Positions 3,823 through 18,837 of a DNA stretch of 64,000 bases are shown here, in pieces (positions within the stretch are counted from its first letter, which is position 1; each line of letters opens with the position of its first letter). Under the pieces are notes generated by a model that was not told the origin of the DNA, searched no databases, and worked only from the letters and a program-made list of their open reading frames with translations. The DNA is taken from positions 1 to 64,000 of the IMG/VR virus record IMGVR_UViG_3300047375_001083. One strand, 5' to 3'. Made by a program: the position numbers and the translations under genes. The DNA is from a virus.

Positions 3823-3884
3823 GAAAGGCGAGCCAGCGCGACCCGAGACGCGCCCCTTCCCCCCCCAATCCGATCCCCTCCTAG

Positions 3885-4739
3885 TCAGCGTTTGAGTCCG
3901 AGTGCATTTCCGACTTCGGAGCTGATCACCCCCCACTGAGGAACAAAGTACATCCCCTCGCCCACAAGTATTGATGCCCCCGAAGCGGTGCAAGTTACCG
4001 CGTTCCTCGCACTAAAGTAGCGCGCCAAGCTCAGGTCGGCCCCGCTCGGTACGTTGATGTCGCTCTCCTCGACGCCCACCGCCTGAGCCACATCACGCAC
4101 CGCCTGATCTTGAGCCTCCTCTTGTGCCTTCTGAGCTTGAGCCTCCTCAGCCCGCTCCATGCGAAGCTCGGCGCAGAAAGAGCTTAACAGACAGCTCTTG
4201 CAGTCACGGCTTCGAGAACTGTAGTGCTTTCCGTAGCAAGCTGTTCGCGCCACAAACCAATCCCTTGTTATTGGGTCATTCACGTCGTATATTACCGGCC
4301 CCTCGACCTCGACCTCGACCTCGACCTTAAGCTCTTGCTTCAGCGAGGGTGAAGGCGAGGGTGAAGGCGGGCGCAGAGGCGAGGGCTGAGGCGCGGGCTT
4401 CGGCGTTGGCTTCGGCGTTGGCTTCGGCGTTGGCTTCGGCGTTGGCTTCGGCGAGGGTGAAGGCGAGGGCTGAGTTACCGCCTGTGACGCGCCCACGCGC
4501 TCCCAACGACCATGCCCCGCCTTTCGGACTCCCGACGAGGGGTCGCTCGCGAGCTTCTTGCAAGCGTTGGTAACCAACGCGGGCAAGATAGCTTTCCCGC
4601 TCTCATACACTCCCACCGCCTCAGCGGTGGGATAGCCCATCACCTGAGCGACCATCTCGCTTAAGGCTGATGTGCGGGTGACAGGGAATGAGGGGATTGA
4701 TTTTTTAATGACGTCTGCGATCTGAGCTTGGTTATACAT
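3885..4739 (-). CDS. Proline-rich-linker protein with Cys cluster
   Basis: 284 residues from the ATG at 4739, which follows the AAAAGTT leader also seen before 5165. Domains: about 80 residues beginning MYNQAQIADVIKKSIPSFP (DNA-binding-like helical region); a Pro linker with KPTP repeated and then PSPSPS (about residues 95-135); a VEVEVEVE strip; CYGKHYSSRSRDCKSCLLSSFC-type four-Cys cluster (about 160-182); a Glu/Ala/Gln coiled segment; and a compact C-terminal domain. The N-terminal domain is HU/KorB-like only in general feel. Unknown function. Confidence 0.65.
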   Translation of the reverse strand: MYNQAQIADVIKKSIPSFPVTRTSALSEMVAQVMGYPTAEAVGVYESGKAILPALVTNACKKLASDPSSGVRKAGHGRWERVGASQAVTQPSPSPSPKPTPKPTPKPTPKPTPKPAPQPSPLRPPSPSPSPSLKQELKVEVEVEVEGPVIYDVNDPITRDWFVARTACYGKHYSSRSRDCKSCLLSSFCAELRMERAEEAQAQKAQEEAQDQAVRDVAQAVGVEESDINVPSGADLSLARYFSARNAVTCTASGASILVGEGMYFVPQWGVISSEVGNALGLKR

Positions 4740-4799
4740 AACTTTTTCTTTCTGTGAGGAGAAGGGGGGAGAAGTTAAAGGGTTGATCTCCTCTCTCAC

Positions 4800-4836
4800 A
4801 CCTTATCTCCCATTTCTGCTTTCTCACCAATACCTC
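4800..4836 (-). promoter_or_regulatory. P-element promoter for the 3885-4739 gene
   Basis: Minus reading GAGGTATTGGTGAG, AAAG, CAGAAATGGG, AGATAAGG, identical over the core to the copy at 3720. The leader pairs GTGAG with CTCAC (4754-4799). Divergent from the P element at 5074. Confidence 0.75.
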
Positions 4837-4851
4837 AAGCTACCCGACCCC

Positions 4852-5060
4852 CCCCCCGAGAAATAGGAATCTGTAAGTGTCGGGGATCTGCCCCACCTAC
4901 AGGAATCTGTCGGTGGAAATACCTACAGGGACTCGCACAGTTCTATGAGTTCACTCTACCCTATCTAGCGGAGCTACCACCCACTCACAGATTCCTACAG
5001 GTGGGGCGCTCAGGGCTAGGGGGGGAAAGGGTTTTACAGATTCCTATAGGTGGGGCGCTC
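4852..5060. repeat. Divergent intergenic region with four A motifs
   Basis: Between the two divergent P elements lie A motifs in both orientations: minus at about 4864 and 4901, plus at about 4986 and 5036. There is also a T motif at 4943-4954. Short palindromic pieces such as CCCCACCTACAGG and CCTACAGGTGGGG make this a likely regulatory hub. No gene seen. Confidence 0.6.
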
Positions 5061-5073
5061 GCTAGTGAAAGTC

Positions 5074-5116
5074 GAGGTATTGGTGAGAAAGCAGAAATGG
5101 GTTAGTAGGTGTCAGG
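5074..5116 (+). promoter_or_regulatory. P-element promoter for the AAA+ gene, with leader hairpin
   Basis: GAGGTATTGGTGAG, AAAG, CAGAAATGGG, then TTAGTAGGTGTCAGG. The leader folds: GTCAGGGGA (5111-5119) pairs with TCCCCTGAC (5142-5150), nine perfect pairs, leaving the AGAAGGA ribosome binding site single-stranded just after the stem. Confidence 0.8.
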
Positions 5117-5164
5117 GGAACAAACCTTCCATTCTTCCCCCTCCCCTGACAGAAGGAAAAAGTT

Positions 5165-6202
5165 ATGGCTATCAAGCGTACACCACTCACTAACTCATGC
5201 CTGAGCAAACCCTTCACCTTTGATCTCGCGGGGGTCTCTTTCGAGAGATCTCCTCTGACACAAAAAATCCTGGATGGGCTTGGCCTCAACAATCAGGCCC
5301 GCTCTCATTCCTTCGGCGAGGATTGGCACGAAGACGTTTTGGAGAACGTCTTCATTGGAGATCACCCCGTCTGTATCACGGGGGTCTCGGGGTCGGGCAA
5401 AGACTACACCGCAGAGGCGCTGGCTTGGGCACTCGGGCGACCTTTGGTCAAACTCTCCATCAAGCCCGACCTCGATCCCAACGAGTGGGTAGGGGGAACG
5501 AGCCTTCGGGGTGATGGAGTTGGCGGGACTGAAACCGTCGCTGAGAACGGATGGCTCGCCCGCGCTTGCGCGGGATGGAGCGACGAGACATGGGAAAAGA
5601 TTGGCGCGAAGCGGATCGCGCCTGTGGTGTTGATCTCCGACTTCGACCGCGCAACTCCTCGACAGCTTGAGGTGTTTCGTCAAGCCTTTGAGGAGCGATC
5701 TCGAAGGTACCTCTCGCATCCCACAACGGGATGCGAGATCCCGATACATCCCGACACAATCTTTATCCTCACATCCAATAGTGGGATAGATGGGGATGGG
5801 GGATCAGGGAACGTGACGAGTCAGCTAGATACCTCCATTGTCAACAGGATAATGGGGGTCATGGCGAGCGCGCCAAGCGCAAAGTTCGAGAGAGACGTAC
5901 TCTCTCGGACGTTCCCTCAGTTAGACAAGGCTGAGGTGGCACTCCTCGTCAAGTGTCTGCGGAGCCTTCGTTCCGCAATGAAGGAGTGCCACCTCCCCTT
6001 TGAGGTGTCGCTCCGTACAGGAAACATGGTGGCGAAAAAGGCTCTCCTCGCCAAGAGGCGGGGGAAAACATGGGAGGAGGCACTGAGGAGAGGCTTTAAG
6101 GTGGTGTCAGGTCACTGTCACGAGCCCGACAATAGAGCACTCATCAAGGGCGCACTAGATCCGATTATCGGATCGCCTTCAATCGGATCTACTAAGCTCT
6201 AA
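5165..6202 (+). CDS. CobS/MoxR-like AAA+ ATPase with atypical Walker motifs
   Basis: 345 residues. P-loop GVSGSGKD (73-80) has Asp where Ser/Thr is usual. The Walker B region VVLISDFD (154-161) reads S-D where D-E is usual. Sensor 1 is ILTSNSG (about 201-207), followed by GDGGSGNVTSQLDTSIVNRI, resembling the CobS stretch that ends in an Arg finger. CobS-type proteins work with a CobT-type VWA partner, and a VWA gene lies 310 bases downstream. Known in the family: ATP-driven remodelling or metal insertion. Inferred here: a chaperone-like phage complex, with ATP use uncertain because of the substitutions. Confidence 0.75.
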   Translation: MAIKRTPLTNSCLSKPFTFDLAGVSFERSPLTQKILDGLGLNNQARSHSFGEDWHEDVLENVFIGDHPVCITGVSGSGKDYTAEALAWALGRPLVKLSIKPDLDPNEWVGGTSLRGDGVGGTETVAENGWLARACAGWSDETWEKIGAKRIAPVVLISDFDRATPRQLEVFRQAFEERSRRYLSHPTTGCEIPIHPDTIFILTSNSGIDGDGGSGNVTSQLDTSIVNRIMGVMASAPSAKFERDVLSRTFPQLDKAEVALLVKCLRSLRSAMKECHLPFEVSLRTGNMVAKKALLAKRRGKTWEEALRRGFKVVSGHCHEPDNRALIKGALDPIIGSPSIGSTKL

Positions 6203-6255
6203 CTAAGGTGGTAGGGTGAGGCGTTAGGCTTGGCAGAAAGGAAATGCCTATGGAA

Positions 6256-6282
6256 AAAACCGCGAGGCGTGGGCGCGGTTTT
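6256..6282 (+). terminator. Intrinsic terminator after the AAA+ gene
   Basis: AAAACCGCG (6256-6264) and CGCGGTTTT (6274-6282) around a 9-base loop; the A/T ends make it symmetrical. It lies 54 bases past the AAA+ stop. Confidence 0.65.
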
Positions 6283-6336
6283 GGAAGGTCGGCGCTCGCG
6301 CTGACCTCGCGGGGAGGCTCGCTGACTCGCCAATCC

Positions 6337-6440
6337 CTTATGAGTTCACTCACTAGGGGAGCTACAGCCGACCCACAGATTCCTGTAAGTGGGGCTGTGG
6401 GTCGGTGGGAGAAAGGATCTTACAGATTCCTATTTCTCGG
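6337..6440 (+). repeat. T motif, A motif palindrome and second A motif
   Basis: T motif at 6337-6349. The first A motif copy is enclosed in a perfect 11-bp inverted repeat, CCGACCCACAG (6368-6378) with CTGTGGGTCGG (6395-6405). The second A motif, ACAGATTCCTATTTCTCGG, is at 6422-6440, directly before the P element. Confidence 0.6.
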
Positions 6441-6461
6441 GGGGTCGGGGTCGGGTAGCTT

Positions 6462-6502
6462 GAGGTATTGGTGAGCTAACAGAAATGGGTTAGTAGGCGA
6501 AA
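6462..6502 (+). promoter_or_regulatory. P-element promoter for the VWA gene
   Basis: GAGGTATTGGTGAG, CTAA, CAGAAATGGG, TTAGTAGG. The ATG is only 10 bases after this copy, with an AAAGGA site at the join, so the leader is short and carries no hairpin, unlike most other cassettes. Confidence 0.75.
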
Positions 6503-6511
6503 GGAAAAAAA

Positions 6512-7339
6512 ATGAAAAAAAGTTATAAACACCCCTTAGTAGAATCATCCCGAAAAGGGATGGTAGCGCAAACTAACCTCCTCCGCCGAGCTTTGATAGA
6601 AGCTCGTGGCTCGAAAGGACTCCTAGCGACAGGTCGCTCGCTGGCTGGAGGGCGACACCTCGTCAACACCTATCGCTCCGCGCAGAGCGGAGAGGTCAAT
6701 CAAGACCGCTTTAAGCGGTCGTTCGTAGAACCCTCGGTTGACGCAGGCGCGAGCCTGATGTTAGACATCTCAGGGTCGATGACCGATAACTTATGGAATA
6801 AATATTCCATAATACAAAACGTGATGGCGTCTGCGGTGGCGCTGTCAGAGGTCTTAGACAAGCTCGGCGTCGTCCACAGAATCGGCGGAGTAGACGTCGA
6901 AATGACCTCTGAGGGATCGGATAAGGAGAGTAAAGTTCGGTCGACGTCTCACGGGATTACAGGCGTGGTCTACCCTTTCTCCAAGCCGAGCGGGAAAGGG
7001 CTAAACTACCCGATTGAGTCAATCATGCGGTTTCCCGCGAACGGCTCAACCTACATTGCGACCTACGCAGAGGTCGCGGTGGATGAGGCGCGCAAGATAC
7101 GCGCGAAACATAGGGTTGCGCTTTACATGACTGATGGGTGCTGTCGTAGTTCCCACTACTTGCACTCCCTCGCCCAACAAGCGAAGCGTGATAATATCAC
7201 GCTCGTAGGCGTGGTGATGGGGCCTCCGAAAATGAGGGAGCAAGCGTCACTCCATCCTAACGGCATCTACGCGAGAGATTGCGTGGAGCTTAGTAAGGTG
7301 GTTTTGGGTCATATCGCTAAGGCTGTGAAGCTCAAGTGA
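6512..7339 (+). CDS. VWA-domain protein (CobT C-terminal-like)
   Basis: 275 residues. A basic N-terminal 75 residues precede a von Willebrand A domain. The metal-binding (MIDAS) pieces are visible: LDISGSM (84-90), Thr in NGSTYIATY (about 178-186) and YMTDG (205-209). In CobT and related proteins this domain is the C-terminal part of a longer chain, joined to an acidic linker and an N-terminal domain. Here it is a separate gene, and a protein matching the missing part is at 11772. Probable partner of the AAA+ protein at 5165. Follows its own P element. Confidence 0.75.
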   Translation: MKKSYKHPLVESSRKGMVAQTNLLRRALIEARGSKGLLATGRSLAGGRHLVNTYRSAQSGEVNQDRFKRSFVEPSVDAGASLMLDISGSMTDNLWNKYSIIQNVMASAVALSEVLDKLGVVHRIGGVDVEMTSEGSDKESKVRSTSHGITGVVYPFSKPSGKGLNYPIESIMRFPANGSTYIATYAEVAVDEARKIRAKHRVALYMTDGCCRSSHYLHSLAQQAKRDNITLVGVVMGPPKMREQASLHPNGIYARDCVELSKVVLGHIAKAVKLK

Positions 7340-7393
7340 GGAGTCGGTCGATGGGAGGGGAGCGCGAGGTTGGGTCGCTGACGCGCCCCTTCC

Positions 7394-7440
7394 CTTATGA
7401 GTTCACTCCCCTTAGTTACCTACAGAGTCCTATTTCTCAG
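7394..7440 (+). repeat. T motif and A motif
   Basis: T motif CTTATGAGTTCAC at 7394-7406 and A motif variant ACAGAGTCCTATTTCTC at 7422-7438, separated by CTTAGTTACCT as in other copies. Confidence 0.65.
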
Positions 7441-7459
7441 GGATATCTACTCATGAGGT

Positions 7460-7503
7460 GAGGTATTGGTGGCATACCTGAAATGGGTTAGTAGGTGTCA
7501 GGA
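7460..7503 (+). promoter_or_regulatory. P-element promoter for the 7557 gene, with leader hairpin
   Basis: GAGGTATTGGTGGC, ATAC, CTGAAATGGG, TTAGTAGGTGTCAGG. The leader pairs GTCAGG-GGAGA (7497-7508, one bulged A) with TCTCCCCTGAC (7531-7541). AGAAAGGTTTCTATC then leads to the ATG. Confidence 0.75.
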
Positions 7504-7556
7504 GGAGATTGACCCTTTAACTTCTTTTCCTCTCCCCTGACAGAAAGGTTTCTATC

Positions 7557-7958
7557 ATGGATAAGCAAGCAGTTGCACAGCGTCTCGCTGAGATCAAGGG
7601 CGCTATGGATGCGCTCAAGGCAGAGGAGGCAACACTCCGCGCTCAGTTGAGCGTAGGCGATAAGCTCAAGGGAGCTTACGGAGAGGTTGCGCTGTCGGAG
7701 CGAGAGAGCGTGAGCTACGATGAGTCGCTGTATCAAGACCTCCTCATGCTTGGGGTTGATCCCCTCGCGTTGGGGAAGGTGAAGCTGAACCCACAGAAAG
7801 AGGCGGTGGCGGTGGCGGTGGCGCAGAACGGCGCGGTTCAGGTGGCGCTCGACAAGAACCGCATCACCAAGACCTCATCAGTGCTTCGAGTGAAGCCCTC
7901 ACCCTCTGTGGCGGTCGAGGGGATCAACAAGGTGGCAAGCCTCTTGGGAGCTGAGTGA
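7557..7958 (+). CDS. Hypothetical protein with N-terminal coiled coil
   Basis: 133 residues. Residues 1-35 form a heptad-like helix (VAQRLAEIKGAMDALKAEEA). A region with GVDPLALGKVKLNPQKEAV follows, then an Ala/Val-rich middle coded by a short GGCGGTG repeat (about 7803-7820), and a C-terminal helix ending LLGAE. Its cassette (P element, leader hairpin, CAGAAAGGTTTCTATC start) is nearly identical to that of the 26-residue peptide downstream. Unknown function. Confidence 0.7.
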   Translation: MDKQAVAQRLAEIKGAMDALKAEEATLRAQLSVGDKLKGAYGEVALSERESVSYDESLYQDLLMLGVDPLALGKVKLNPQKEAVAVAVAQNGAVQVALDKNRITKTSSVLRVKPSPSVAVEGINKVASLLGAE

Positions 7959-8022
7959 GGCGTTAGGCTCAGGGGCGAGGGAGACGGCGAGGTGGGCTTT
8001 GGGTGGCGATCCGCGCCGTTCC

Positions 8023-8078
8023 TTTATGAGTTCACTGCCCCTAGCCACCAACTCACTTACAGATTCCTATTTCTCAGG
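8023..8078 (+). repeat. T motif and A motif
   Basis: TTTATGAGTTCAC at 8023-8035 and ACAGATTCCTATTTCTC at 8060-8076, followed by a stretch nearly identical to 7438-7560. The whole upstream region of the next gene is therefore a duplicate of the upstream region of the 7557 gene. Confidence 0.65.
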
Positions 8079-8096
8079 GATATCTACTCATGAGGT

Positions 8097-8139
8097 GAGG
8101 TATTGGTGGCATACCTGAAATGGGTTAGTAGGTGTCAGG
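8097..8139 (+). promoter_or_regulatory. P-element promoter for the 26-residue peptide gene
   Basis: Same sequence as the copy at 7460 (GAGGTATTGGTGGC, ATAC, CTGAAATGGG, TTAGTAGGTGTCAGGAGGAG). The leader hairpin GTCAGGAGGAGA/TCTCCCCTGAC is conserved with few changes. Confidence 0.75.
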
Positions 8140-8193
8140 AGGAGATCAACCCTTTAACTTCTTTCCCTCTCCCCTGACAGAAAGGTTTCTATC

Positions 8194-8274
8194 ATGAACA
8201 CATTTATTGCACTCGCTGTTGGCTCACTCGCTGTGAGCTTCATTTATCACTATGTGATCAGCTTCAGGCGCTGA
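8194..8274 (+). CDS. 26-residue single-pass membrane peptide
   Basis: Starts MNTFIALAVG and ends YHYVISFRR. One hydrophobic segment (about residues 3-23) with a basic Arg-Arg tail implies an inner-membrane peptide with cytoplasmic C-terminus. The ATG follows the standard CAGAAAGGTTTCTATC leader and a full P element, so this very short gene has the same expression apparatus as its neighbours. It may share a transcript with the 8351 gene, which lacks its own P element. Could be a holin-like, toxin-like or membrane-anchor peptide; not decided. Confidence 0.65.
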   Translation: MNTFIALAVGSLAVSFIYHYVISFRR

Positions 8275-8350
8275 TCCATCTCACCTAAAGGGGATCGGCG
8301 TGAACTCAAGACCTCGCCCCTGTCAGAAACAACGATAAAGGAAAATAGAA

Positions 8351-8953
8351 ATGACACAACAAGAACTTATAGAACAAGCAGTCGGGATCGCAAACAGCAT
8401 CGGACACGAACTCTCCACGAACGCTCCAAAGAGCGATGATCCCTTTCTCGGCTATGAGGTCGCTGACCTAATCTATCTCGTGGGTCAAGAGGCTGTAGAC
8501 AGCTTGCGCGCTCAGTGGGGTAAAGAAGCGATCAAGGCTCTTGAGGGTCAAGACCTCACCATTGGTCAACCTGTGGTAGCCACTAGAGGAAAGATGAAGG
8601 GAGTCAAGGGATGGATCAACGCGGAGATGCCCTCACAATATACCGATAACGATCTTGCCTACCTCGTAATCACTCTACAGGGGAAGAGCGGTTGGGTCGC
8701 CAAGAAAAGCCTCAAGCTCCGCGTTCCCGATATTGGGGAGCGTGACTTACAGGCTGAATGCAAGGCTAAAGGAATGAAGATCAAGCAGATGTCGCGAGGA
8801 TCTAAGGTCAAAGACGCTGAGGGGCGCTCAGGCTACCTTATCGGTTATGGGAAGAAAGACGACGACCAGCCTTTACCCACAGTGGCGGTTCAGTGGGAGG
8901 GGTCGAGCCAAGAGGAGTGGGTCGTGGCATCATTACTAGAGAGCGGAGCTTGA
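8351..8953 (+). CDS. Hypothetical protein, possible SH3-like beta domains
   Basis: 200 residues. Residues 1-70 are helical. Residues about 70-125 (IGQPVVATRGKMKGVKGWI ... SGWVAKKSLKLRV) and 145-198 (MSRGSKVKDAEGRSGYLIGY ... VAVQWEGSSQEEWV) look like two small KOW/SH3-type barrels: each has a Gly turn after a basic strand and a closing W-V-A pair. Such barrels often bind nucleic acid or protein; this is inference. AAAGGA lies 8 bases before the ATG. No P element of its own. Confidence 0.65.
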   Translation: MTQQELIEQAVGIANSIGHELSTNAPKSDDPFLGYEVADLIYLVGQEAVDSLRAQWGKEAIKALEGQDLTIGQPVVATRGKMKGVKGWINAEMPSQYTDNDLAYLVITLQGKSGWVAKKSLKLRVPDIGERDLQAECKAKGMKIKQMSRGSKVKDAEGRSGYLIGYGKKDDDQPLPTVAVQWEGSSQEEWVVASLLESGA

Positions 8954-9055
8954 GCCTCCGCAAGTGAGGAGGCCAAGTGGTTTGCTCAGGCCATGTCTGA
9001 CGCGGGGATGGTATGGCATGAGGCGAGGGGAGGGAGGGCGCGAACGCGCTCCTCC

Positions 9056-9068
9056 TTTATGAGTTCAC
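9056..9068 (+). repeat. T motif
   Basis: TTTATGAGTTCAC, placed between the 8351 gene and its terminator. Confidence 0.6.
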
Positions 9069-9088
9069 GCAAGGGGGAGTAAAGCAAA

Positions 9089-9141
9089 AGAGGCGTGGTG
9101 AGGATGAGGTGTCAAACCCTCGTCTTCACCACGCCTCTTTC
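9089..9141 (+). terminator. Terminator hairpin
   Basis: AAAGAGGCGTGGTGA.GA.GAGG pairs with CCTCGTCTTCACCACGCCTCTTT around a short loop, ending TTTCTCGTTT. A second, smaller hairpin with GAGGCGTG and CACGCCTC follows at about 9163-9198 and also ends TTTCTCG. The rest of 8954-9368 shows no gene. Confidence 0.8.
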
Positions 9142-9303
9142 TCGTTTCTGATAGTAGAGCTGAGGCGTGTGGCTCAAAAGAAAGAACCTCACGCCTCTTT
9201 CTCGCTTCTGATAGCAACACTCCGCGCCCGCCTCTCGGCAAGCTCGCTCTGATCGGAGATACCCTCTCTCGCTCACCCTGTCCTTCTTTGCTGTAGGGTA
9301 AGC

Positions 9304-9368
9304 GAGAAAGTAGATGATCCTACTAGCATATCCAAAGGCATTTGACCTCTTGGATCATCTACTTTCTC
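9304..9368 (-). terminator. Perfect 17-bp inverted repeat after the 9369 gene
   Basis: Arms 9304-9320 and 9352-9368 (core AGTAGATGATCC/GGATCATCTACT) with a 31-base loop, starting one base after the minus gene's stop. Minus-strand reading ends ...CTTTCTCG, like the other terminators here. Likely terminator or mRNA-stabilising hairpin. Confidence 0.7.
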
Positions 9369-9650
9369 CTATCTGTTGTGGGGAAGCTCGATGATCACAC
9401 ACTCGCGAGCATCCATTTTGACGCCGTTGATGTAGTCCGACCTTCCCTTGCGTCCATACTCCACCTCAGCCAATCCCTCCACCTCTGGACAGAGATAACC
9501 CATAGGGTTGGGGTATAACAGCTTATGGGCAAGTGTCGCAATACCAACGCCTATGCTCGCCCAAAGAATACAGGTAAGAGCGAACCCTCCCAACTCATGG
9601 TCTGTGCGACCCTTGCCCACTACCGCGCCCCCTCTGACGTACTGACTCAT
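9369..9650 (-). CDS. Small single-pass membrane protein
   Basis: 93 residues. A hydrophobic segment at about 22-44 (GFALTCILWASIGVGIATLA) is followed by a polar domain (YLCPEVEGLAEVEYGRKGR, CVIIELPHNR). The ATG at 9650 follows GAAAGGTTTTTACT, a variant of the standard leader. The leader keeps a GAGGGGC/GCCCCTC stem (9668-9674 with 9691-9697). Its promoter is a poor P-element match. Unknown. Confidence 0.65.
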   Translation of the reverse strand: MSQYVRGGAVVGKGRTDHELGGFALTCILWASIGVGIATLAHKLLYPNPMGYLCPEVEGLAEVEYGRKGRSDYINGVKMDARECVIIELPHNR

Positions 9651-9699
9651 AGTAAAAACCTTTCTTCGAGGGGCGGGTGTAATGAGTTAAGCCCCTCTC

Positions 9700-9742
9700 T
9701 CATACTGCATATCCGATTTCTGCTCTCCCCTCACAGCACCTG
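9700..9742 (-). promoter_or_regulatory. Divergent P-element copy
   Basis: On minus: GGTGCTGTGAGGGGAG then AGCAGAAATCGG and ATATGC. The 3' half (CAGAAAT-GG) is kept, but the GGTATTGG half is degenerate. Position and the leader hairpin downstream match the other cassettes. Confidence 0.45.
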
Positions 9743-9770
9743 TTTCTACAGAAACACCGCCCGAATAACG

Positions 9771-9819
9771 GGAATCTGTAGGTAGCTCTCCTATCTAGGG
9801 GAGGGGTGAACTCATAAAG
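9771..9819 (-). repeat. A motif and T motif, minus orientation
   Basis: GGAATCTGTAGGTAGC at 9771-9786 and GTGAACTCATAAAG at 9806-9819, behind the minus gene ending at 9876. Confidence 0.6.
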
Positions 9820-9875
9820 GAACAGGCGCGAAGCCCCCCCTCAAAGCCCGACCGCCGACCTCCCCCCTCCCCTCA

Positions 9876-10409
9876 TCAATCGGGTGTCGGGTCACTCAAG
9901 GTCCAATCCGCGCTCTCGGCAGATGCCGAGATCCTTGAGGCGACATCACAAGCGATGTCGCTTATCTTTCCCCACTCCGTTCTCAACGAAGGGGAAAGGT
10001 TTCGTTCAATAGCCTCGAAGAACTCGCGGTGTCTCGCGAGGGTCACGACATCTGCCGAGAGCTGATCCAACTCCCGAGGAGTTGGATCATAAGGCATCTC
10101 AAATAAATTGTTCTTTCTGATCGCGAGAGATATCATCGCGATACGAGGGTCTTTGAGAAGCGGAACTTCCCTCTTCACCTCTCTGTATGTGAAGCCCATT
10201 GCCTGCATAAAACCATCACAGGTCTCAGCGCCCATTGTGTGTGTCTCTGTCATCAGAGACATCTCTTTGCGGAGCTGATCAAGCTCCACCTCAAGCGCAT
10301 GAACGCGCTCGCTCTTCTTTGTGAGAAGATCGTCCTTCGCGTCTAAGGTTTTTGAGATCGCGTAGTAGGCCCACGCGAACATCCCGACAAGAGAGATGAG
10401 TGACATCAT
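9876..10409 (-). CDS. Membrane-anchored coiled-coil protein (spanin-like layout)
   Basis: 177 residues: N-terminal hydrophobic segment (MMSLISLVGMFAWAYYAIS), then a coiled coil at about 25-55 (LLTKKSERVHALEVELDQLR), then a mixed soluble domain to residue 177. The layout resembles an inner-membrane spanin or another anchored phage protein, but no spanin lipoprotein partner was seen, so the name is only a comparison. Standard CAGAAAGGTTTCTATC start. Own P element at 10471. Confidence 0.65.
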   Translation of the reverse strand: MMSLISLVGMFAWAYYAISKTLDAKDDLLTKKSERVHALEVELDQLRKEMSLMTETHTMGAETCDGFMQAMGFTYREVKREVPLLKDPRIAMISLAIRKNNLFEMPYDPTPRELDQLSADVVTLARHREFFEAIERNLSPSLRTEWGKISDIACDVASRISASAESADWTLSDPTPD

Positions 10410-10470
10410 GATAGAAACCTTTCTGTGAGGAGGAGGGAGTTAGGTTAGTAAGTTAATCTCCTCTCTCACA

Positions 10471-10506
10471 CCTTATTTCCCATTTCTGCTTTCTAACCAA
10501 TACCTC
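10471..10506 (-). promoter_or_regulatory. P-element promoter for the 9876-10409 gene
   Basis: Minus: GAGGTATTGGTTAG, AAAG, CAGAAATGGG, AAATAAGG. Leader pairs GTGAGAGAGGAG with CTCCTCCTCAC (plus 10424-10470). Confidence 0.75.
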
Positions 10507-10530
10507 AAACCACCTTGAGCGGAAGCGCAG

Positions 10531-10572
10531 AATAGGAATCTGTAGGTAACTAAGGGCAGTGAACTCATAAGG
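10531..10572 (-). repeat. A motif and T motif, minus orientation
   Basis: AATAGGAATCTGTAGGTAAC and, 9 bases on, GTGAACTCATAAGG. The same block recurs almost unchanged at 11531-11571. Confidence 0.7.
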
Positions 10573-10618
10573 GATGAGCCGATCCTGATCCCCTGATCCC
10601 CCCCCCGACCTCCCCACC

Positions 10619-10987
10619 TTAGCCATAATATCGGCTGTAGTGGTGGTGGCCTGGTACATCGGGGGCATCAGGCTCACCATCCTCTCCCTTCATCTCACGC
10701 TTGAGGCGGTTAGCCTCAGTGCGAGCCTCAAGCTCTGCCCTCACCCGAGCCTTCCTCGCCTCCCGAGCCTTCACCTTCACCATCCCCTTTTCGTGAGCGA
10801 GCTTGAGGCTCGCTTTCTCTTCTTCCTCTCGTTTGAGGAAGGCTTGCCAACGCTCCTCCTCAGCCTCCCACCTCTTCGCCTTTCTCCTCCTCCATTCCCG
10901 ATCCTCCGCGCCATCCCTCCATTCCTCAATGGCGGGGAGGATCGGGATGAGGAGTAGAAAGACGAGACTGATGACTAAGCTAACCAT
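10619..10987 (-). CDS. Membrane-anchored, highly charged helical protein
   Basis: 122 residues. N-terminal hydrophobic segment (MVSLVISLVFLLLIPILPAI), then about 80 residues of Arg/Lys/Glu/Ala helix (REWRRRKAKRWEAEEERWQA), and a His/Tyr tail (GHHHYSRYYG). Same layout as its upstream neighbour: anchor plus long helix. Standard leader and own P element at 11049. Unknown. Confidence 0.65.
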   Translation of the reverse strand: MVSLVISLVFLLLIPILPAIEEWRDGAEDREWRRRKAKRWEAEEERWQAFLKREEEEKASLKLAHEKGMVKVKAREARKARVRAELEARTEANRLKREMKGEDGEPDAPDVPGHHHYSRYYG

Positions 10988-11048
10988 GATAGAAACCTTT
11001 CTGTGAGGAGGAGGGAGTTAGGTTAGTAAGTTAATCTCCTCTCTCACA

Positions 11049-11084
11049 CCTTATTTCCCATTTCTGCTTTCTCACCAATACCTC
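11049..11084 (-). promoter_or_regulatory. P-element promoter for the 10619-10987 gene
   Basis: Minus: GAGGTATTGGTGAG, AAAG, CAGAAATGGG, AAATAAGG. The leader of about 60 bases is nearly identical to the one at 10410-10470, with the GTGAG/CTCAC stem. Confidence 0.75.
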
Positions 11085-11110
11085 AAGCTACCTAGCCCGA
11101 GCCCTAGAAA

Positions 11111-11150
11111 CAGGAATCTGTAGGTAACTACAGGGGAGTGAACTCATAAG
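11111..11150 (-). repeat. A motif and T motif, minus orientation
   Basis: CAGGAATCTGTAGGTAACTA, then GTGAACTCATAAG. Followed at 11163-11200 by CCACCGCCCACCG tandem repeats. Confidence 0.65.
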
Positions 11151-11211
11151 GGAAGGGGCCGAAGCGCCCACCGCCCACCGCCCACCGCCCACTGCGCCCC
11201 TCACATCAGGC

Positions 11212-11412
11212 TCACCCTTGGCGCTCAGGTGCGCGGTCGAAGTCGAAGTCGGAGATCAACACCACAGGCGCGAAGCGGATCGCGCCTGTGGTGTTGATCG
11301 AGGGTTTGAGCTTGTGTGCGCGGTCGAAGTCGGAGATCAACACGAAGCGGATCGCGCCTGTGGTGTTGATCGAGGGTTTGAGCTTGTGGTTTGGGTATGT
11401 CAACGCTCGCAT
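11212..11412 (-). CDS. Chimeric mini-gene built from pieces of the AAA+ gene
   Basis: 66 residues from the ATG at 11412, which follows CAGAAAGGCTCTGCT and a P element. After MRALTYPN the protein is two copies of HKLKPSINTTGAIRF, each followed by VLISDFDRA or VVLISDFDFDRA. VLISDFDRA is the Walker B stretch of the AAA+ protein (residues 155-163), in the same reading sense. KPSINTTGAIRF is the antisense reading of the same DNA. It therefore arose by duplication and inversion of 5603-5652. Whether it is translated to any purpose is unknown. Confidence 0.45.
   Translation of the reverse strand: MRALTYPNHKLKPSINTTGAIRFVLISDFDRAHKLKPSINTTGAIRFAPVVLISDFDFDRAPERQG
11231..11388. repeat. Inverted and tandem duplication of AAA+ gene segment, with perfect palindrome
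   Basis: Two tandem units (11231-11317, 11318-11388), each with a reversed copy of 5627-5652 followed by a direct copy of about 5605-5634. In unit 1 the two form a perfect 19-bp inverted repeat (11254-11272 with 11281-11299) with loop AAGCGGAT. At the source the same loop lies between a 6-bp inverted repeat GGCGCG/CGCGCC (5603-5608, 5617-5622), which looks like the template-switch point. Confidence 0.85.
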
Positions 11413-11470
11413 AGCAGAGCCTTTCTGTGGAGAGGAGGGGAAGAATGAAAGGTTGATCTCCTCTCTCACA

Positions 11471-11506
11471 CCTTATACCCCATTTCTGCTTTCCCACCAA
11501 TACCTC
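11471..11506 (-). promoter_or_regulatory. P-element promoter for the chimeric mini-gene
   Basis: Minus: GAGGTATTGGTGGG, AAAG, CAGAAATGGG, GTATAAGG, with the best -10-like box (GTATAA) of the set. Leader stem GAGAGAGGAG/CTCCTCTC at 11425-11467. Confidence 0.75.
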
Positions 11507-11530
11507 AACCCACCTTGAGCGGAAGCGCAA

Positions 11531-11666
11531 AATAGGAATCTGTAGGTAACTAAGGGCAGTGAACTCATAAGGCTGTGCGAAGCTGACTAGCCCCACTTAC
11601 AGATTCCTATTTCTCGGGGGGTCGGGGTCGGTGAGGGAAAGGATCTTACAGATTCCTATTTCTCGG
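11531..11666. repeat. Divergent A/T motif cluster
   Basis: Minus A motif (11531-11550) and T motif (11559-11571), then two plus A motifs ACAGATTCCTATTTCTCGGGG (11600-11619, 11649-11668) before the plus P element. Lies between divergent cassettes; no gene. Confidence 0.65.
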
Positions 11667-11682
11667 GGGGGTCGGGTAGCTT

Positions 11683-11726
11683 GAGGTATTGGTGAGCTAA
11701 CAGAAATGGGTTAGTAGGTGTCAGGG
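11683..11726 (+). promoter_or_regulatory. P-element promoter for the metallopeptidase-like gene
   Basis: GAGGTATTGGTGAG, CTAA, CAGAAATGGG, TTAGTAGGTGTCAGGGG. The upstream 60 bases (A motif, GGGGTCGGGTAGCTT) match those at 6421-6461 before the VWA gene, tying the two cassettes together. Confidence 0.75.
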
Positions 11727-11771
11727 GAACAAACCTTCTAAACTCCCCCCCTCGACAGAAGGAAAAGCCTT

Positions 11772-13382
11772 ATGGCTAAAGACATTTACAACTACGACCC
11801 CATGAGTCCAGCTTCAGGTGCGTTCAAGGGGCTCATGCGGAGCGTGAACGCCCTATCAGGGCGAAACGTCCCCTTACATCGTGGCGGTATAACGTTCGCG
11901 GTCGGCGGACAGTTTCGCTTTTTGAGTGTCGCCACAGCAATTTCGATCGCCTGGCGCGGATGCTTCAAAAAACCATCCGCGCACGAGCTGTGGGCGTTGG
12001 CTGAGAAGGTCGTACTTGAGGAGTTGCTCAAGTACGGCCTATACTACCCGACAAGAGAGGCCGCCGCGATGGCCAAACTTGATCCTAGCTCCGCGATGGG
12101 GGGCGTGATCCACGAGGTCGGCCACCTCATCTGCGATCAGGCGGGGGTCGAGGCTGACTTCAAGTCAGCTAAAAAGCACTACCTCCCTATTTTATTACGG
12201 CTTGAAAAGATTGGCGCTCTCAGAGCGGTTGAGGTCTTGCCTAGATGGTCTAACCTCACCTCTGATATCCGCCTTGAGCGGATGATGGGTGAGATGTACC
12301 CACACTCGAAGATCCGCTTGGAGTCAGTCCAAGCGTGGGTGCATGGCCTTGAGGCCCCAACGCGAAAGAGTGGGGGCTTCGCGTCTCAGCTCATGTGCGC
12401 TCTCCGTGACATGGGGAAGGGGTGGGGTAATCCCGTGTGGGCTGAGTACTCAAAAGAGGCGCGGGATGAGGCGTGTCGCTTGCGCCCTATCCTTGAAAAG
12501 CTCTACACGGAGGGGCAGAGCGTAGAGGCCACATCTCACCTACCTGTACAGGTGGCTCTTGAGATCCTCTTGGAGCTTAAAGAGCAAACTCTACCACCTG
12601 TAGAGGATGACGAGAAAGACGGCGAGGGAGAGGGAGACGGCGAGGGTGAGGGCAAGGGTAAGGGCAAGGGCAAGGGCAAGGGTAAGGGCAAGGGCAAGGG
12701 CAAGGGTAAGGGCAAGGGAGATGATGAGGGAGACGGAGACGGAGAGGGCAAGGGAGAGGGAGACGGCGAGGGAGACGGCGAGGGAGACGGCGAGGGAGAC
12801 GGCGAGGGCAAGGGAGACGGAGACGGCGAGGGAGAGGGAGACGGCGAGGGCAAGGGAGAGGGAGACGGCGAGGGAGAGGGAGAGGGAGACGGCGAGGGAG
12901 AGGGAGACGGCGAGGGAGACGGAGAGGGAGAGGGAGAGGGCAAGGGAGACGGCGAGGGAGACGGAGAGGGAGACGGAGAGGGAGACGGAGAGGGAGACGG
13001 AGAGGGAGACGGAGAGGGAGACGGAGAGGGAGACGGCAAGGGTAAGGGCAAGGGCAAGGGCAAGGGCAAGGGCAAGGGAGAGGGAGACGGAGAGGGCAAG
13101 GGAGAGGGAGACGGCGAGGGCAAGGGAGAAGTGGATGGGAGACAGCGGGGGCGCTCAGGTGGGGATAAGGCGAGTGAGGCGCGCCCCGACGCGACACTCC
13201 CCTCAAAAGAGGCGGTTGATAGGGTCTTGGGGGGGGAAGGAAAGGCTCTTGATCCTAGCTCTGCGATGGATCGTGCCTTCAACGCCAATAAGGGTGATGT
13301 GGGCCATGATGTGTGGGTAGGAAACGGCATCCCACCACGCGTGGTGAGTGATAAAGATATGCGTAAGTTAATGCGCCTTTAG
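11772..13382 (+). CDS. HEVGH metallopeptidase-like protein with Gly/Glu/Asp/Lys linker (CobT N-terminal-like)
   Basis: 536 residues. N-terminal 280 residues: HEVGH (114-118) is a zinc HExxH motif, and [17 protein letters not shown] (about 162-178) resembles the third-ligand region of metallopeptidase-VWA proteins. Residues about 283-453 are an almost pure [12 protein letters not shown] low-complexity linker. The C-terminal 80 residues end with [13 protein letters not shown] and repeat LDPSSAM from residue 103. In CobT-like proteins a VWA domain follows the acidic linker; here it is missing and the VWA is a separate gene at 6512. Likely partner of the AAA+ and VWA proteins. Confidence 0.7.
12616..13130 (+). 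repeat. Hexanucleotide minisatellite coding the linker
   Basis: About 500 bases of GGCGAG, GGAGAC, GGAGAG and GGCAAG hexamers (all GGN-GAN/AAR type) coding Gly alternating with Glu, Asp or Lys. Blocks of pure GGCAAG (Lys) lie at both ends, about 12650-12718 and 13032-13076. Prone to length change by slippage; the reverse strand is open for the same reason. Confidence 0.9.
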
Positions 13383-13466
13383 GCGCGAGGTTGGGGCGCG
13401 AGGTTGGGGCGCGAGGTTGGGTCGCGAGGTTGGGTCGCGAGGTTGGGTCGCGAGGTTGGGTCGCTG
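13383..13466 (+). repeat. 13-bp tandem repeat, six copies
   Basis: Six tandem copies of the unit CGCGAGGTTGGG plus G or T, directly after the metallopeptidase-like stop and before a T motif. Single copies of the unit occur in the same place in other cassettes (about 7369, 14080, 14668), so this is a local expansion of the ordinary downstream sequence. Confidence 0.85.
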
Positions 13467-13479
13467 GCGCGCCCTTTCC

Positions 13480-13527
13480 CTTATGAGTTCACTCCCCTTA
13501 GTTACTTACAGATTCCTATTTCTCGGG
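13480..13527 (+). repeat. T motif and A motif
   Basis: CTTATGAGTTCAC (13480-13492) and ACAGATTCCTATTTCTCGG (13508-13526). Confidence 0.7.
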
Positions 13528-13536
13528 GGGGGGTTT

Positions 13537-13580
13537 GAGGTATTGGTGGGAAAGCAGAAATGGGTTAGTAGGTGTCAGGG
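13537..13580 (+). promoter_or_regulatory. P-element promoter for the first paralog (13607)
   Basis: GAGGTATTGGTGGG, AAAG, CAGAAATGGG, TTAGTAGGTGTCAGGG. Leader is short (AAACAAAGAAAGAAAG) without hairpin; identical to the copy at 14164. Confidence 0.75.
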
Positions 13581-13606
13581 AAACAAAGAAAGAAAGAAAG
13601 AGGTGA

Positions 13607-14053
13607 ATGAAGATGATGATAAAAACTAATCGGGGATTAGAGCTTGATCTCCTAGCCATCCCTCATGTGCATCTTGGAGGGTGGGCGTGTGTGTCCACGC
13701 GGGGGGAGCGATTAGGAGCGTGGACACTTAGGACACTCAGTCGAGATCTGCTCGGCGTACACGTCGGAGTGTGGGTTGAAGAGGATTATTCGCGATCAAG
13801 CGATGAATCGCGAACATACGCATTTTGCGTACAGTTCAGGGAGAGGGGGGGGGGGGTCGAGTGGGGGTATTGGTCGAGGTATAAAGTAACCCTTCCTACA
13901 GGGAAGGGATCATACCGCTTTAAAGGCGTTCACGTCCATACAGTGGACGATGCGCTCTCGATCATCGGTGAACCTCTCCGAGAGGTTCTTTTGAATATAA
14001 AAGCAGACGTGGACCATCTGCTCACGTTCTACGGAGCGGTTGGCGCTACATAG
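13607..14053 (+). CDS. Hypothetical protein, paralog of the 14231 gene
   Basis: 148 residues. It shares with the next gene LRTLSRDLLGVHVGV, an FRERG...W.WSRYKVTLP stretch, and the C-terminus ADVDHLLTFYGAVGAT. The middle is variable. This gives an all-purpose alpha/beta fold guess only; no family recognised. A second ATG six bases in is equally good. The pair arose by duplication of a whole cassette including promoter. Confidence 0.65.
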   Translation: MKMMIKTNRGLELDLLAIPHVHLGGWACVSTRGERLGAWTLRTLSRDLLGVHVGVWVEEDYSRSSDESRTYAFCVQFRERGGGVEWGYWSRYKVTLPTGKGSYRFKGVHVHTVDDALSIIGEPLREVLLNIKADVDHLLTFYGAVGAT

Positions 14054-14106
14054 GCGTGTGGCTCAAGAGGTTGGGGGCGAGGTTGGGTCGCTGACGCGTC
14101 CTTTCC

Positions 14107-14153
14107 CTTATGAGTTCACTCCCCTTAGTTACCTACAGATTCCTATTTTCTCG
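14107..14153 (+). repeat. T motif and A motif
   Basis: CTTATGAGTTCAC (14107-14119) and ACAGATTCCTATTTTCTCGG (14135-14154). Confidence 0.7.
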
Positions 14154-14163
14154 GGGGGGGTTT

Positions 14164-14207
14164 GAGGTATTGGTGGGAAAGCAGAAATGGGTTAGTAGGT
14201 GTCAGGG
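14164..14207 (+). promoter_or_regulatory. P-element promoter for the second paralog (14231)
   Basis: Same 44 bases as at 13537. The preceding GGGGGGTTT and following AAACAAAGAAAGAAAG are also shared, showing recent cassette duplication. Confidence 0.75.
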
Positions 14208-14230
14208 AAACAAAGAAAGAAAGGCAGAAC

Positions 14231-14638
14231 ATGATACTTGAGTTGAAACCTTCGGGGTGGGTTAATTATCCCAATGAAATCGACATTAAGTCGATTGTCC
14301 CTCAAATGAGGGGTTGGGGCGAGAGGGCCGGCTTTTTAATGCTCCGCACACTGAGCAAAGACTTGCTCAGTGTGAGAGTCAGCATAAAAAAATTAAAAGA
14401 TGACGGGGATGATCGCGGAACCGACGCCAAGCGCAACCTCGCATTCAGTACTGAATACAAAGAGAGGGGTGTCGGCGAGTGGTCTAAGTGGTCGAGAATC
14501 AAATTCTCTGTCCCCAAGAGGGCATCGGGTGAGAGATTAGACCTCTCGAAGCTACCTACAGTGATGAGTGCAAGGGAGGCACTCATCGAGGACGTGGAGC
14601 ATCTGCTCGCGTTCTATGGCGCGGTTGGGACTCACTGA
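14231..14638 (+). CDS. Hypothetical protein, paralog of the 13607 gene
   Basis: 135 residues from the ATG at 14231 (MILELKPSGW), chosen because it follows AAAGGCAGAAC. Upstream in-frame codons run through the P element and are not a plausible start. Conserved with the 13607 product: LRTLSKDLLSVRVSI, YKERGVGEWSKWSRIKFSVP and EDVEHLLAFYGAVGTH. Unknown function. Confidence 0.65.
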   Translation: MILELKPSGWVNYPNEIDIKSIVPQMRGWGERAGFLMLRTLSKDLLSVRVSIKKLKDDGDDRGTDAKRNLAFSTEYKERGVGEWSKWSRIKFSVPKRASGERLDLSKLPTVMSAREALIEDVEHLLAFYGAVGTH

Positions 14639-15480
14639 GGGATCGGATAGGGCGTGGTAGGCTGAGGGTCGAGGTTGGGTCGCTGACGCGCCCCTTCCCT
14701 TATGAGTTCACTCCCCTTAGTTACCTACAGATTCCTATTTCTCGTAGAGGATCAGGCGAGCTAGGGGATCAACAGAAAGAAGCGAGAGGGAGGGGCGCTC
14801 CTTTCTGTCAGGGGAGGGGGTCAAGGTCGGATCAGGGCTAGGGGTTGAGTGAGGGAGTAATCAGGTCAGCTCGGGGTTAGCTCAGCCATCAGCTAGAGGA
14901 GGGGTTGAGCTGACCTCTCCTCTAGCTGATGACTAGAGGTCGGCTCAGGTTGGCGCTCGGAGGTCATGTGGGGTGGTTGGGGTCAGCTTGAGGCTCGGCT
15001 CGTTCAAGGGCGGGGTCAGCTTGAGGCTCGGTTCGTTCAAGGGTGAGGTCAGGCTAGAAGGAGTGTTCGGCTCGTTCAAGGGTGAGGTCAGGCTAGAAGG
15101 AGTGTTCGGCGCGCGCTCAGGGGATGAGGGGGGGTCAGGGTCTATATAGGGGCGTAACCCTCTCTAACTAGGCGTGTGGCTCGGCGCGATCCTTGAGTTC
15201 ACGCTTTCGACCTCACAGATTCGCGCCAAAAAGTGGGCGGAGTGGGTCGGGACCCCCGAAAAGCCATATTGAAAACGCATTGAAAATGAGAAGCCTGATT
15301 CTGAACCATGTTTGAACCCTGTTTCTTTCTCACCTTCCTTTTCTCTTGTGCGGATAGACTTCCTTAGTATTTCCTCTCAGAGAGGGGGGGTCTTACACGA
15401 GAGATTTTTAGGATTGTTTTTCTTATAAAGCGTCAGCCATATATTATTTGGTTTTGGATTTTTCGTGTTTGATTTTGAGT
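14639..15480. other. Non-coding region with palindrome and tandem repeats; possible origin
   Basis: About 840 bases without a gene. It contains a T motif (14699) and an A motif (14728) and a 19-bp inverted repeat with one mismatch (14887-14905 with 14913-14931, core CATCAGCTAGAGGAG). Two tandem repeat pairs follow: a unit with GGTCAGCTTGAGGCTCGG (about 14982 and 15015) and a unit with GGTGAGGTCAGGCTAGAAGG (about 15041 and 15080). A GC-to-AT transition ends in an AT-rich stretch at 15400-15480. Direct repeats next to AT-rich DNA fit a replication origin, but no initiator site is recognised. Confidence 0.45.
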
Positions 15481-16205: not shown

Positions 16206-16229
16206 GTTGTTTAGGGGTTAGTTGGGGTT

Positions 16230-16270
16230 GAGGTATTGGTGAGGTGACAGAGTTGGGTAACTAAGAGTAA
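16230..16270 (+). promoter_or_regulatory. P-element copy for the nuclease-methyltransferase gene
   Basis: GAGGTATTGGTGAGGTGACAG, AGTTGGG, TAACTAAGAGTAACG. The TAACTAAGAGTAACGA tail is shared with the copy at 19813. Confidence 0.65.
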
Positions 16271-16320
16271 CGATTAAACAGGCGCGCTCATAAGAGGGTG
16301 TGTCGAGAAAGAGATTGAGT

Positions 16321-18837
16321 ATGAGATTCCATTCAGAGATGGACGTAACTACACATTTCCGTAGGCTTCTTGAGGAGGCAACGGACGAGCACTTTAAGAG
16401 TCTTAAGGGATCGGGTTGGGCAACGGACGGAGTTCTTTCTTGGGAGTCACCTACGAAGTCTTCGGTGCGTGTTTTGCTTGAGACGAAGTTTGGCACAGAC
16501 CTTAAGAAAGAAGAGGTGCGTTCATCGGTGTTGGCTCAGGCGCTTTACTATTGCAAGCGATTTGAGGAGCGCGGAGACGATCTTCCTAATGTGATCTTTA
16601 TTGGAGACGAGTCGCATTGTTTCGCGATTTCTTTCGAGAGCGTGAAAGAGTTCTTGAACGCGGAGGTTGATTGGAGTCGTCGTCCATCGAGTCCTGACGC
16701 ATCTCTTAAGGTGTCTCACTCAGCTCATCTTGAGCCTACGTTGGGAGTTGACGGTCATCACTTGAAGAGTCTCTGCGAGCAGTTATCAGAGGGTTGTCTT
16801 TTGAAGGTGAAACCATCTAAGAAGAACATCTCAGCGATGTATCAGTATTGGGTGGAGCACATCATCCCTGAAGATCTTTATGAGGCTGTTGAGATGACGG
16901 ACATTTTCTTTGGTTGTGTGTTTTACTCTGAGGAAGATGATCACTTTGCTTACGCGCATCCCTCGAAGAAAGAAACGCTCGTTATGGGGGGCAAGGAGTA
17001 CCGTCTGAATCTCAAGGCGATGGAGGCTTTCTTTGAGCGCCGAGAGCGTGGTTTATCCGCGAAAGAGATTGATGAGCTTGTGTCGATGAGAGACAGGATC
17101 ATTGAGGATGACACACGTCGTCGTCAGGGTGCTTTCTACACGCCTACGTTATGGGTAAACGAGGCACATTCTGAGATGGACAAGGTGTTGGGGGAGGGTT
17201 GGAGAGATGAGTGTATTGTGTGGGATTGTTGCGCGGGGACGGGGAACTTGACTCGCGACTTTGACTTCGAGAATCTTATTCTTTCTACGGCGGAAGCACC
17301 TGACGTGAAGGCGATTGTTAGAGAGGGTTACAATGAGGGCGCGGAGGTCTTTCAGTATGATTTCTTGAACCCTGAGTCTGATAGCCCTTTCTTTTCGGAG
17401 CGCGAGAACGTGTTACCTCTTTCAGTTAAGAAGATGCTGAGAAAGGGCGCGGAGAGTGGGAAGCGATTGGTGTTTCTGATCAACCCCCCTTATGCCACAG
17501 CAGGGGTAAAGAGTGCAGAATCTCGAAAGGGAGTAGCGAGTACCATTGTAAACCAAGAGATGAAGGGGGCTAAGTTAGGGGCTTGCTCTCAACAGCTCTA
17601 TGCTCAGTTCTTATTTCAATGTGAGCAGGTAGCGTCTGAGTATGGGTTCAAGGATAAGAGTGTGGGAGTGTTCTCGCCTATCCTTTACATGGTGAGTGGC
17701 TCTTTCGCTAAGTTTCGCCCCTATTGGTACGAGCGTTATTCTTATCAGTCGGGCTTCATGTTCCAAGCCTCTCATTTCGCTGATGTGAAAGGGTCTTGGG
17801 CGATTAGCTTCACTTTATGGAACGAGGGTACTACTGAAGCTAATCAAGACCTTCCCCTCACTCTGAAAGATATAGCAGAAGAAAGCGTTGTTTCTCTAAG
17901 GAGAAAAAACTTGTATTCGGCAACTGAAAGAGAGGCTTCTAAATGGGTAGGGTTAAAGAACAGCACCGCTAAAAAGTCTGCGTATCTGACCTGTCGAAGT
18001 GGACTCATGGTTTCAGGTGAAAAAATAAAGCATGATCCAAAAGGACTAGTTTACTTTGTAAACGACTCCAACTCCCCTTACCAAAATCAGCTTGTTTACT
18101 TTGCCCCCTTGCCCCCTTACTCAAACAATCGCTCTATCCCCATTCTTGCAGGTGAAGGGTTTAGACGAGCTATCGCCCTTTACTCTGCTCGCAAGCTCTC
18201 AACAGACACTTGGATCAACAACAAGGACGAGTATCTAGCTCCTCAGACTGAGAAAGAAGGCTATGAGCAGTGGGTTGATGACTGTCACGTTTATGCTCTC
18301 CTACATATCTCTAATAACATGAGCGCGATGAGAGGAGTTGAGTACAAGGGTCAGACTCACAACATCCACAACCATTTCTTTTGGATGACTCGGAAAGAGG
18401 CTCTTGATCTTTACGGATCACACAAGCAAGCTCGCGCTCTTTACCGAGATGCTAAGAGTAATCCGATTCCTTACGAGAAAGGGATTGAGTTAGGAGAGGA
18501 TGTGACACCTGAGTGGAGAAAGAACGGCGACCCTTACTTCTCTCATGTGCTTCCGACTCTTAATCTCTCTGACTTGGCTAAAGAGATCATGACTGACTTG
18601 AGAGAGTTATTCGTTGAGAGCTTTGCCTTGAGGTCTAAGACTGACCATGTGGTAGAGAGGGGAAAGAGCATTGACCTTCACTTAGGCGCGTGGGATGCGG
18701 GTATCTATCAGCACAAGAAGATGTGGTACACCGACCCTGTGTTGAAAGCGAAGTGGGATGCTTTAAGAGAGAAGCACAGTCGTCTAGGAAAGAGTCTTGA
18801 GCATGGAGTTTACAGCTATGGATTCCTTAAGAAGTGA
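16321..18837 (+). CDS. Type IIG-like restriction-modification fusion (PD-(D/E)XK nuclease plus adenine methyltransferase)
   Basis: 838 residues from the ATG at 16321; a GTG at 16300 is possible. The N-terminus has WATDGVLSW ... VLLETKFG (E-T-K near residue 53), consistent with a PD-(D/E)XK nuclease. Then a helical spacer; RRQGAFYTPTLWV (about 266-278), typical of Eco57I-class enzymes; motif I VWDCCAGTGN (about 300-309); motif IV INPPY (about 387); and about 400 further residues likely holding the target-recognition domain. Would cut and methylate DNA at one site. In a phage it may attack host or competitor DNA or protect its own. Confidence 0.7.
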   Translation: MRFHSEMDVTTHFRRLLEEATDEHFKSLKGSGWATDGVLSWESPTKSSVRVLLETKFGTDLKKEEVRSSVLAQALYYCKRFEERGDDLPNVIFIGDESHCFAISFESVKEFLNAEVDWSRRPSSPDASLKVSHSAHLEPTLGVDGHHLKSLCEQLSEGCLLKVKPSKKNISAMYQYWVEHIIPEDLYEAVEMTDIFFGCVFYSEEDDHFAYAHPSKKETLVMGGKEYRLNLKAMEAFFERRERGLSAKEIDELVSMRDRIIEDDTRRRQGAFYTPTLWVNEAHSEMDKVLGEGWRDECIVWDCCAGTGNLTRDFDFENLILSTAEAPDVKAIVREGYNEGAEVFQYDFLNPESDSPFFSERENVLPLSVKKMLRKGAESGKRLVFLINPPYATAGVKSAESRKGVASTIVNQEMKGAKLGACSQQLYAQFLFQCEQVASEYGFKDKSVGVFSPILYMVSGSFAKFRPYWYERYSYQSGFMFQASHFADVKGSWAISFTLWNEGTTEANQDLPLTLKDIAEESVVSLRRKNLYSATEREASKWVGLKNSTAKKSAYLTCRSGLMVSGEKIKHDPKGLVYFVNDSNSPYQNQLVYFAPLPPYSNNRSIPILAGEGFRRAIALYSARKLSTDTWINNKDEYLAPQTEKEGYEQWVDDCHVYALLHISNNMSAMRGVEYKGQTHNIHNHFFWMTRKEALDLYGSHKQARALYRDAKSNPIPYEKGIELGEDVTPEWRKNGDPYFSHVLPTLNLSDLAKEIMTDLRELFVESFALRSKTDHVVERGKSIDLHLGAWDAGIYQHKKMWYTDPVLKAKWDALREKHSRLGKSLEHGVYSYGFLKK

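Follow-up and report, generated by a model that had tools for sequence, protein, structure and literature searches.

How does a short phage open reading frame (ORF) come to carry fragments of another gene of the same genome in both orientations, and does the product serve the phage? We addressed this in a 64-kb window, the opening part of a virus record of 84,037 bases, in which a 66-codon ORF (hereafter the mini-ORF) lies on the minus strand, where a sequence-only reading had correctly placed it (Table 1). By exact tiling, ~125 of its 201 nt are a copy of the Walker-B region of a plus-strand AAA+ ATPase gene (5603-5653), with zero substitutions. From 5' to 3', the mini-ORF consists of 24 nt of its own start, unit 1, unit 2 and 18 nt of its own end, and the earlier description of two tandem units, each with a reverse and a direct copy of the donor segment, is borne out by the tiling, with a 17-nt piece heading each unit. 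The repeated block covers 11271-11388 (118 nt). Both sense copies keep the reading frame of the donor; VLISDFDRA, said to be encoded twice, is exact in the first unit, whereas the second unit has an altered reading due to a 6-nt duplication (11266-11242 corresponds to 5623-5647, and 11241-11230 to 5642-5653). In unit 1, the one closer to the ATG, one palindrome arm is short by 9 nt.

Table 1 Coordinates of the mini-ORF, its copied pieces, its upstream signals and its donor (window positions).
Feature	Position	Strand	Details
Donor gene, MoxR/CobS/GvpN-like AAA+ ATPase	5165..6202	plus	345 aa; Pfam AAA_5, phrog_249
Donor segment, Walker-B region GAKRIAPVVLISDFDRA	5603..5653	plus	Inverted repeat GGCGCG-N8-CGCGCC at 5603-5622, spacer AAGCGGAT
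Mini-ORF	11212..11412	minus	ATG 11412, stop 11212; 66 codons, 201 nt; translation MRALTYPNHKLKPSINTTGAIRFVLISDFDRAHKLKPSINTTGAIRFAPVVLISDFDFDRAPERQG
17-nt piece heading unit 1, CACAAGCTCAAACCCTC	11372..11388	minus	Exact tiling
Unit 1 antisense copy	11343..11371	minus	Reverse complement of 5607-5635, 29 nt, 100%
Unit 1 sense copy	11317..11342	minus	5628-5653, 26 nt, 100%; donor reading frame, VLISDFDRA
Identical 17-nt piece heading unit 2, CACAAGCTCAAACCCTC	11300..11316	minus	Exact tiling
Unit 2 antisense copy	11267..11299	minus	Reverse complement of 5603-5635, 33 nt, 100%
Unit 2 sense copy	11230..11266	minus	5623-5653 with 6-nt tandem duplication; reads VVLISDFDFDRA
Palindrome	11254..11299		Perfect 20-bp arms 11254-11273/11280-11299, 6-nt loop AGCGGA; hairpin scan
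P element of the mini-ORF (promoter-like region and 5' leader)	11410..11600	minus	Complete copy
Mini-ORF leader hairpin	11426..11470	minus	Just upstream of Shine-Dalgarno AAAGG (11420-11424)

The record was joined with the viral contig IMGVR_UViG_3300048438_000153 (G001; 275,102 bases), which starts at record position 3723 and ends at 14542, giving a 285,920-base circle. The AAA+ gene is the only donor of the mini-ORF pieces in this joined 286-kb genome, and its 33-nt match has a BLAST E of about 1e-12, which together put the correspondence beyond chance. The donor product matches Pfam AAA_5 (27.4 bits, cut-off 22) and phrog_249, with a match to the GvpN model below threshold. The copied segment is kept in homologous AAA+ genes (SDYDRATPEQ in the distant phage G013, VDEANRARPE in HHTV-2; the full G013 counterpart is SIILFSDYDRATPEQ, aligned against PVVLISDFDRATPRQ); the segment is thus a feature of the AAA+ family, which identifies the AAA+ gene as the donor. 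When the 285,920-bp genome was searched for the origin of the 17-nt piece and of the mini-ORF ends, nothing above chance emerged, and the 17-nt piece had no full-length match elsewhere. We rejected the mini-ORF as a remnant of an older AAA+ paralogue, given the zero substitutions and the antisense half. A CRISPR-like arrangement (two 46-nt repeats, 26 nt apart) was likewise dismissed, as its parts are copies of a coding gene.

The copied pieces meet in a palindrome whose arms are both identical to donor positions 5616-5635, and which has the top score in the 286-kb genome in the short-loop hairpin scan used here. The 19-bp palindrome with loop AAGCGGAT described earlier is the same structure as our 20-bp form with a 6-nt loop, and the donor loop is indeed flanked by GGCGCG (5603-5608) and CGCGCC (5617-5622). 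The spacer has the opposite orientation to that in the sense copy, with the sense strand of the mini-ORF reading GGCGCG ATCCGCTT CGCGCC and the donor GGCGCG AAGCGGAT CGCGCC. The footprint therefore has the elements of a template switch, namely a short inverted repeat at the donor, a longer perfect repeat copied from one arm and an inverted spacer, and the tiling breakpoints fall at the donor inverted repeat, at 5635 and at 5653. The earlier proposal of a template switch at a short inverted repeat followed by tandem duplication fits base for base and matches published footprints; the strand switch itself is the part that we infer.

Our preferred reading, to which we give a probability of roughly 0.7, is that the mini-ORF is a recent mutational product in which a piece of the AAA+ gene was copied ectopically, the strand was switched at the inverted repeat and the block was duplicated in tandem, most likely without a function. 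In the probable order of events, a sense piece of the AAA+ gene (about 5603-5653) would have been copied, inverted with respect to the genome, to the ORF slot that follows a repeated sequence termed the P element, 5.6 kb away. At GGCGCG-N8-CGCGCC the polymerase would have changed strand and run back outward along the right-hand arm to 5635, which would have turned the 6-bp arms into a 20-bp perfect palindrome with its loop inverted against the sense copy. The block would then have been tandemly duplicated; a 9-nt loss would have shortened a palindrome arm in one copy, and slippage would have added a 6-nt repeat to the other. It is likelier that the sense fragment arrived first and served as template for the antisense arm, because the sense copy reaches 5653 and the antisense copy only 5635. 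Inverted P elements near both sites could have guided the switch. Against this reading, the ectopic product needs at least one further copying step beyond the published same-site footprints. No clear microhomology was found at the mini-ORF junctions; P leaders share 10 identical nt (GGAGATCAAC) with the antisense strand of the AAA+ gene, but this stretch lies away from any junction and was rejected as a bridging microhomology.

The receiving site lies in an unusual region of the genome. P elements are roughly 200 nt long, occur in about 14 complete or partial copies on both strands and are found only within 3656-14743, ~11 kb of the 286-kb genome. The corresponding island, 3724-14541, has 55% G+C (47.5% elsewhere in the 285,920-base circle). 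Thirteen copies each stand ahead of one ORF, and these ORFs include the AAA+ gene, a VWA gene, a CobT-like gene and a lytic-transglycosylase-like gene; one copy precedes only 26 codons. The consensus reads ACAGATTCCTATTTCT ... GAGGTATTGGTGAGAAAGCAGAAATGGG ... GGTGTGAGAGAGGAG - loop - CTCCTCCTCACAG-AAAGG-ATG. Upstream lies a half-site, ACAGATTCCT, and some copies carry the dyad TTACAG-ATTC-CTGTAA. Directly before the Shine-Dalgarno sequence, 10 of the 13 leaders, that of the mini-ORF included, form a hairpin. Pairing in its outer stem is 95%, four of the ten sequences show a G-C/C-G exchange, and no shuffle or slid control reaches its covariation score. Ahead of the mini-ORF, the sequence-only reading had rightly seen a full P element with leader hairpin and start, and 12 further P copies precede ORFs. 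A search of the P elements for a sigma-70-type promoter consensus found none; their position ahead of ORFs and the likeness to neighboring genes suggest that they act as promoters. A repeated element unrelated to P occurs beyond the island (16227-16324 and 19810-19904, with more in L094 near 5703-5783 and 8200-8268) and is possibly another promoter family.

Apart from the mini-ORF, the island has no dispersed copy of coding sequence. The island makes up 3.9% of the genome length and holds four of its 13 strongest short-loop hairpins (binomial P about 0.001), an enrichment consistent with a local tendency to template-switch-like events. Two further long imperfect hairpins lie in the island (10896-10947 and 9087-9140), and the former, within a P-driven 122-aa gene, may be a second template-switch product. 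Rfam miRNA-family matches at 10870-10976 were discarded as chance matches to a hairpin in the neighboring gene, far below gathering scores. It is conceivable, though quite improbable, that this island of P cassettes with frequent palindrome-forming copying errors is a nursery for small genes, and that the mini-ORF has been caught at birth as a peptide gene or an RNA regulator of the ATPase.

On present evidence, functional readings of the mini-ORF (gene birth or decoy regulation) are unlikely, and it is most likely a young, expressible ORF with no present function, from which an RNA is probably made and perhaps translated. A gene being born would be translated from the P element, with the 66-aa peptide or its expression already under selection. 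Such a gene would be expected to carry the complete set of signals seen here (P element, leader hairpin, AAAGG Shine-Dalgarno and ATG, as in neighboring genes), and the leader hairpin has been kept despite the divergence of the leader sequence from other P copies. Each of the three indels (9, 6 and 72 nt) has a length divisible by three, for which chance gives about 1 in 27, and the sense copies stand in the phase of the donor; this keeping of the frame hints at selection for it. The open frame itself is not distinctive, as 1015 of 3000 dinucleotide shuffles were also open over the full length and, of the three frames on the opposite strand, two are open throughout. The mini-ORF has no match in Pfam or NCBIfam and was found in no relative searched, and the 20-bp hairpin within its coding sequence should impede translation. 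Taken with these observations, an emerging gene under selection is unlikely.

Decoy regulation, also raised by the sequence-only reading, is suggested by complementarity to the AAA+ mRNA. Here, the two antisense copies in the transcript (29 and 33 nt) would act on the AAA+ mRNA in trans, for example through RNase III cleavage. Complementarity to 5603-5635 is perfect, unit 1 has a weak self-fold (-17.3 kcal/mol), and its predicted pairing with the AAA+ mRNA exceeds the stability of the two self-folds by about 42 kcal/mol, but any perfect 30-nt antisense would score likewise. The antisense copy of unit 2 is tied up in the 20-bp hairpin of that unit (-43.6 kcal/mol for the unit 2 fold), and the target sits deep in the gene, about 440 nt into the coding region and away from the ribosome-binding site. 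Antisense RNAs are expected to combine complementarity to the mRNA with an accessible pairing region near the translation start, and of these we found the former and not the latter; Rfam gave no match in the mini-ORF. Regulation of the ATPase in trans is accordingly a highly improbable role.

Whether the locus is real in the phage population is a separate matter, and G001 bears on it. Over 14542-83600, the record and G001 differ by about ten single bases in alignment, and a ribonucleotide reductase in the remainder of the 84,037-base record is 100% identical to one in G001, so that G001 is nearly the same phage. The region 3724-14541, which holds both the donor gene and the mini-ORF, is absent from G001, which therefore neither confirms nor denies the mini-ORF. 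Since G001 breaks at exactly both edges of the island, perhaps owing to repeats or population variation, the mini-ORF rests on one record. This would favor an assembly or amplification artefact, formed by chimeric joining at the palindrome and the repeats. Inverted chimeras are a known product of whole-genome amplification, and the last 400 nt of the record (83641-84037) part abruptly from G001, to which the preceding 69 kb are nearly identical, suggesting a faulty contig end. An artefact is nevertheless very improbable, as the 118-nt repeated block can be spanned by one ordinary read, the two units differ by specific indels, and the mini-ORF lies in the middle of the contig and in exact register with its P element and ATG, which is not expected from assembly error.

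No close relatives of the AAA+, VWA and CobT-like proteins, of the P element or of the mini-ORF junction were found in the viral and genome collections searched. The nearest phage found with an AAA+/VWA/CobT-like module was G013, a 296,642-base record that is distant (AAA+ about 31-40% identical) and in which neither P elements nor a mini-ORF-like gene were found. The sequence-only reading would have been contradicted by an older, longer gene in the slot of the mini-ORF, and G013, the one relative comparable, has no such gene; as G013 is distant, absence from it does not date the event. The CobT-like protein contains a ~170-residue low-complexity GEGDGEG/GKGKGK tract (12624-13129), whose coding sequence is made up of imperfect repeats of 12 to 42 nt.

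Accounts of gene birth mostly draw on old and diverged cases. At this locus the donor, the likely copying event and the receiving promoter stand side by side without one substitution, so that the steps can be read directly, and several known systems offer a measure for them. The genes for a CobS/MoxR/GvpN-like AAA+ ATPase and its VWA and CobT-like partners occur together in both this phage and G013. In G013 the module is compact (108015-111873), without P elements or a mini-ORF, whereas in this phage it has both; the shared genes (5165-7339 and 11772-13382 here) stand in another order and orientation in G013. In yeast REG2, a 5-bp inverted repeat with a 5-bp spacer became a 16-bp perfect inverted repeat with spacer inversion (PMC8604942). 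As there, a short imperfect inverted repeat would have given rise to a long perfect one, with the spacer inverted against the sense copy and coding sequence altered; unlike in REG2, the donor is unaltered and the product, inverted and tandemly duplicated, lies 5.6 kb from it in a separately promoted ORF, while the cited published footprints sit at the original site. Template switching can also make RNA hairpins in one step (PMC8794818). Those cases are rRNA genes with known phylogeny, and the mini-ORF differs from them in having no ancestral allele or known RNA function; like them, it has a long perfect stem that points to one copying event rather than many substitutions. Template switching with arm homogenization and spacer inversion is therefore a documented process, which is joined at this locus by an ectopic site and a tandem duplication.
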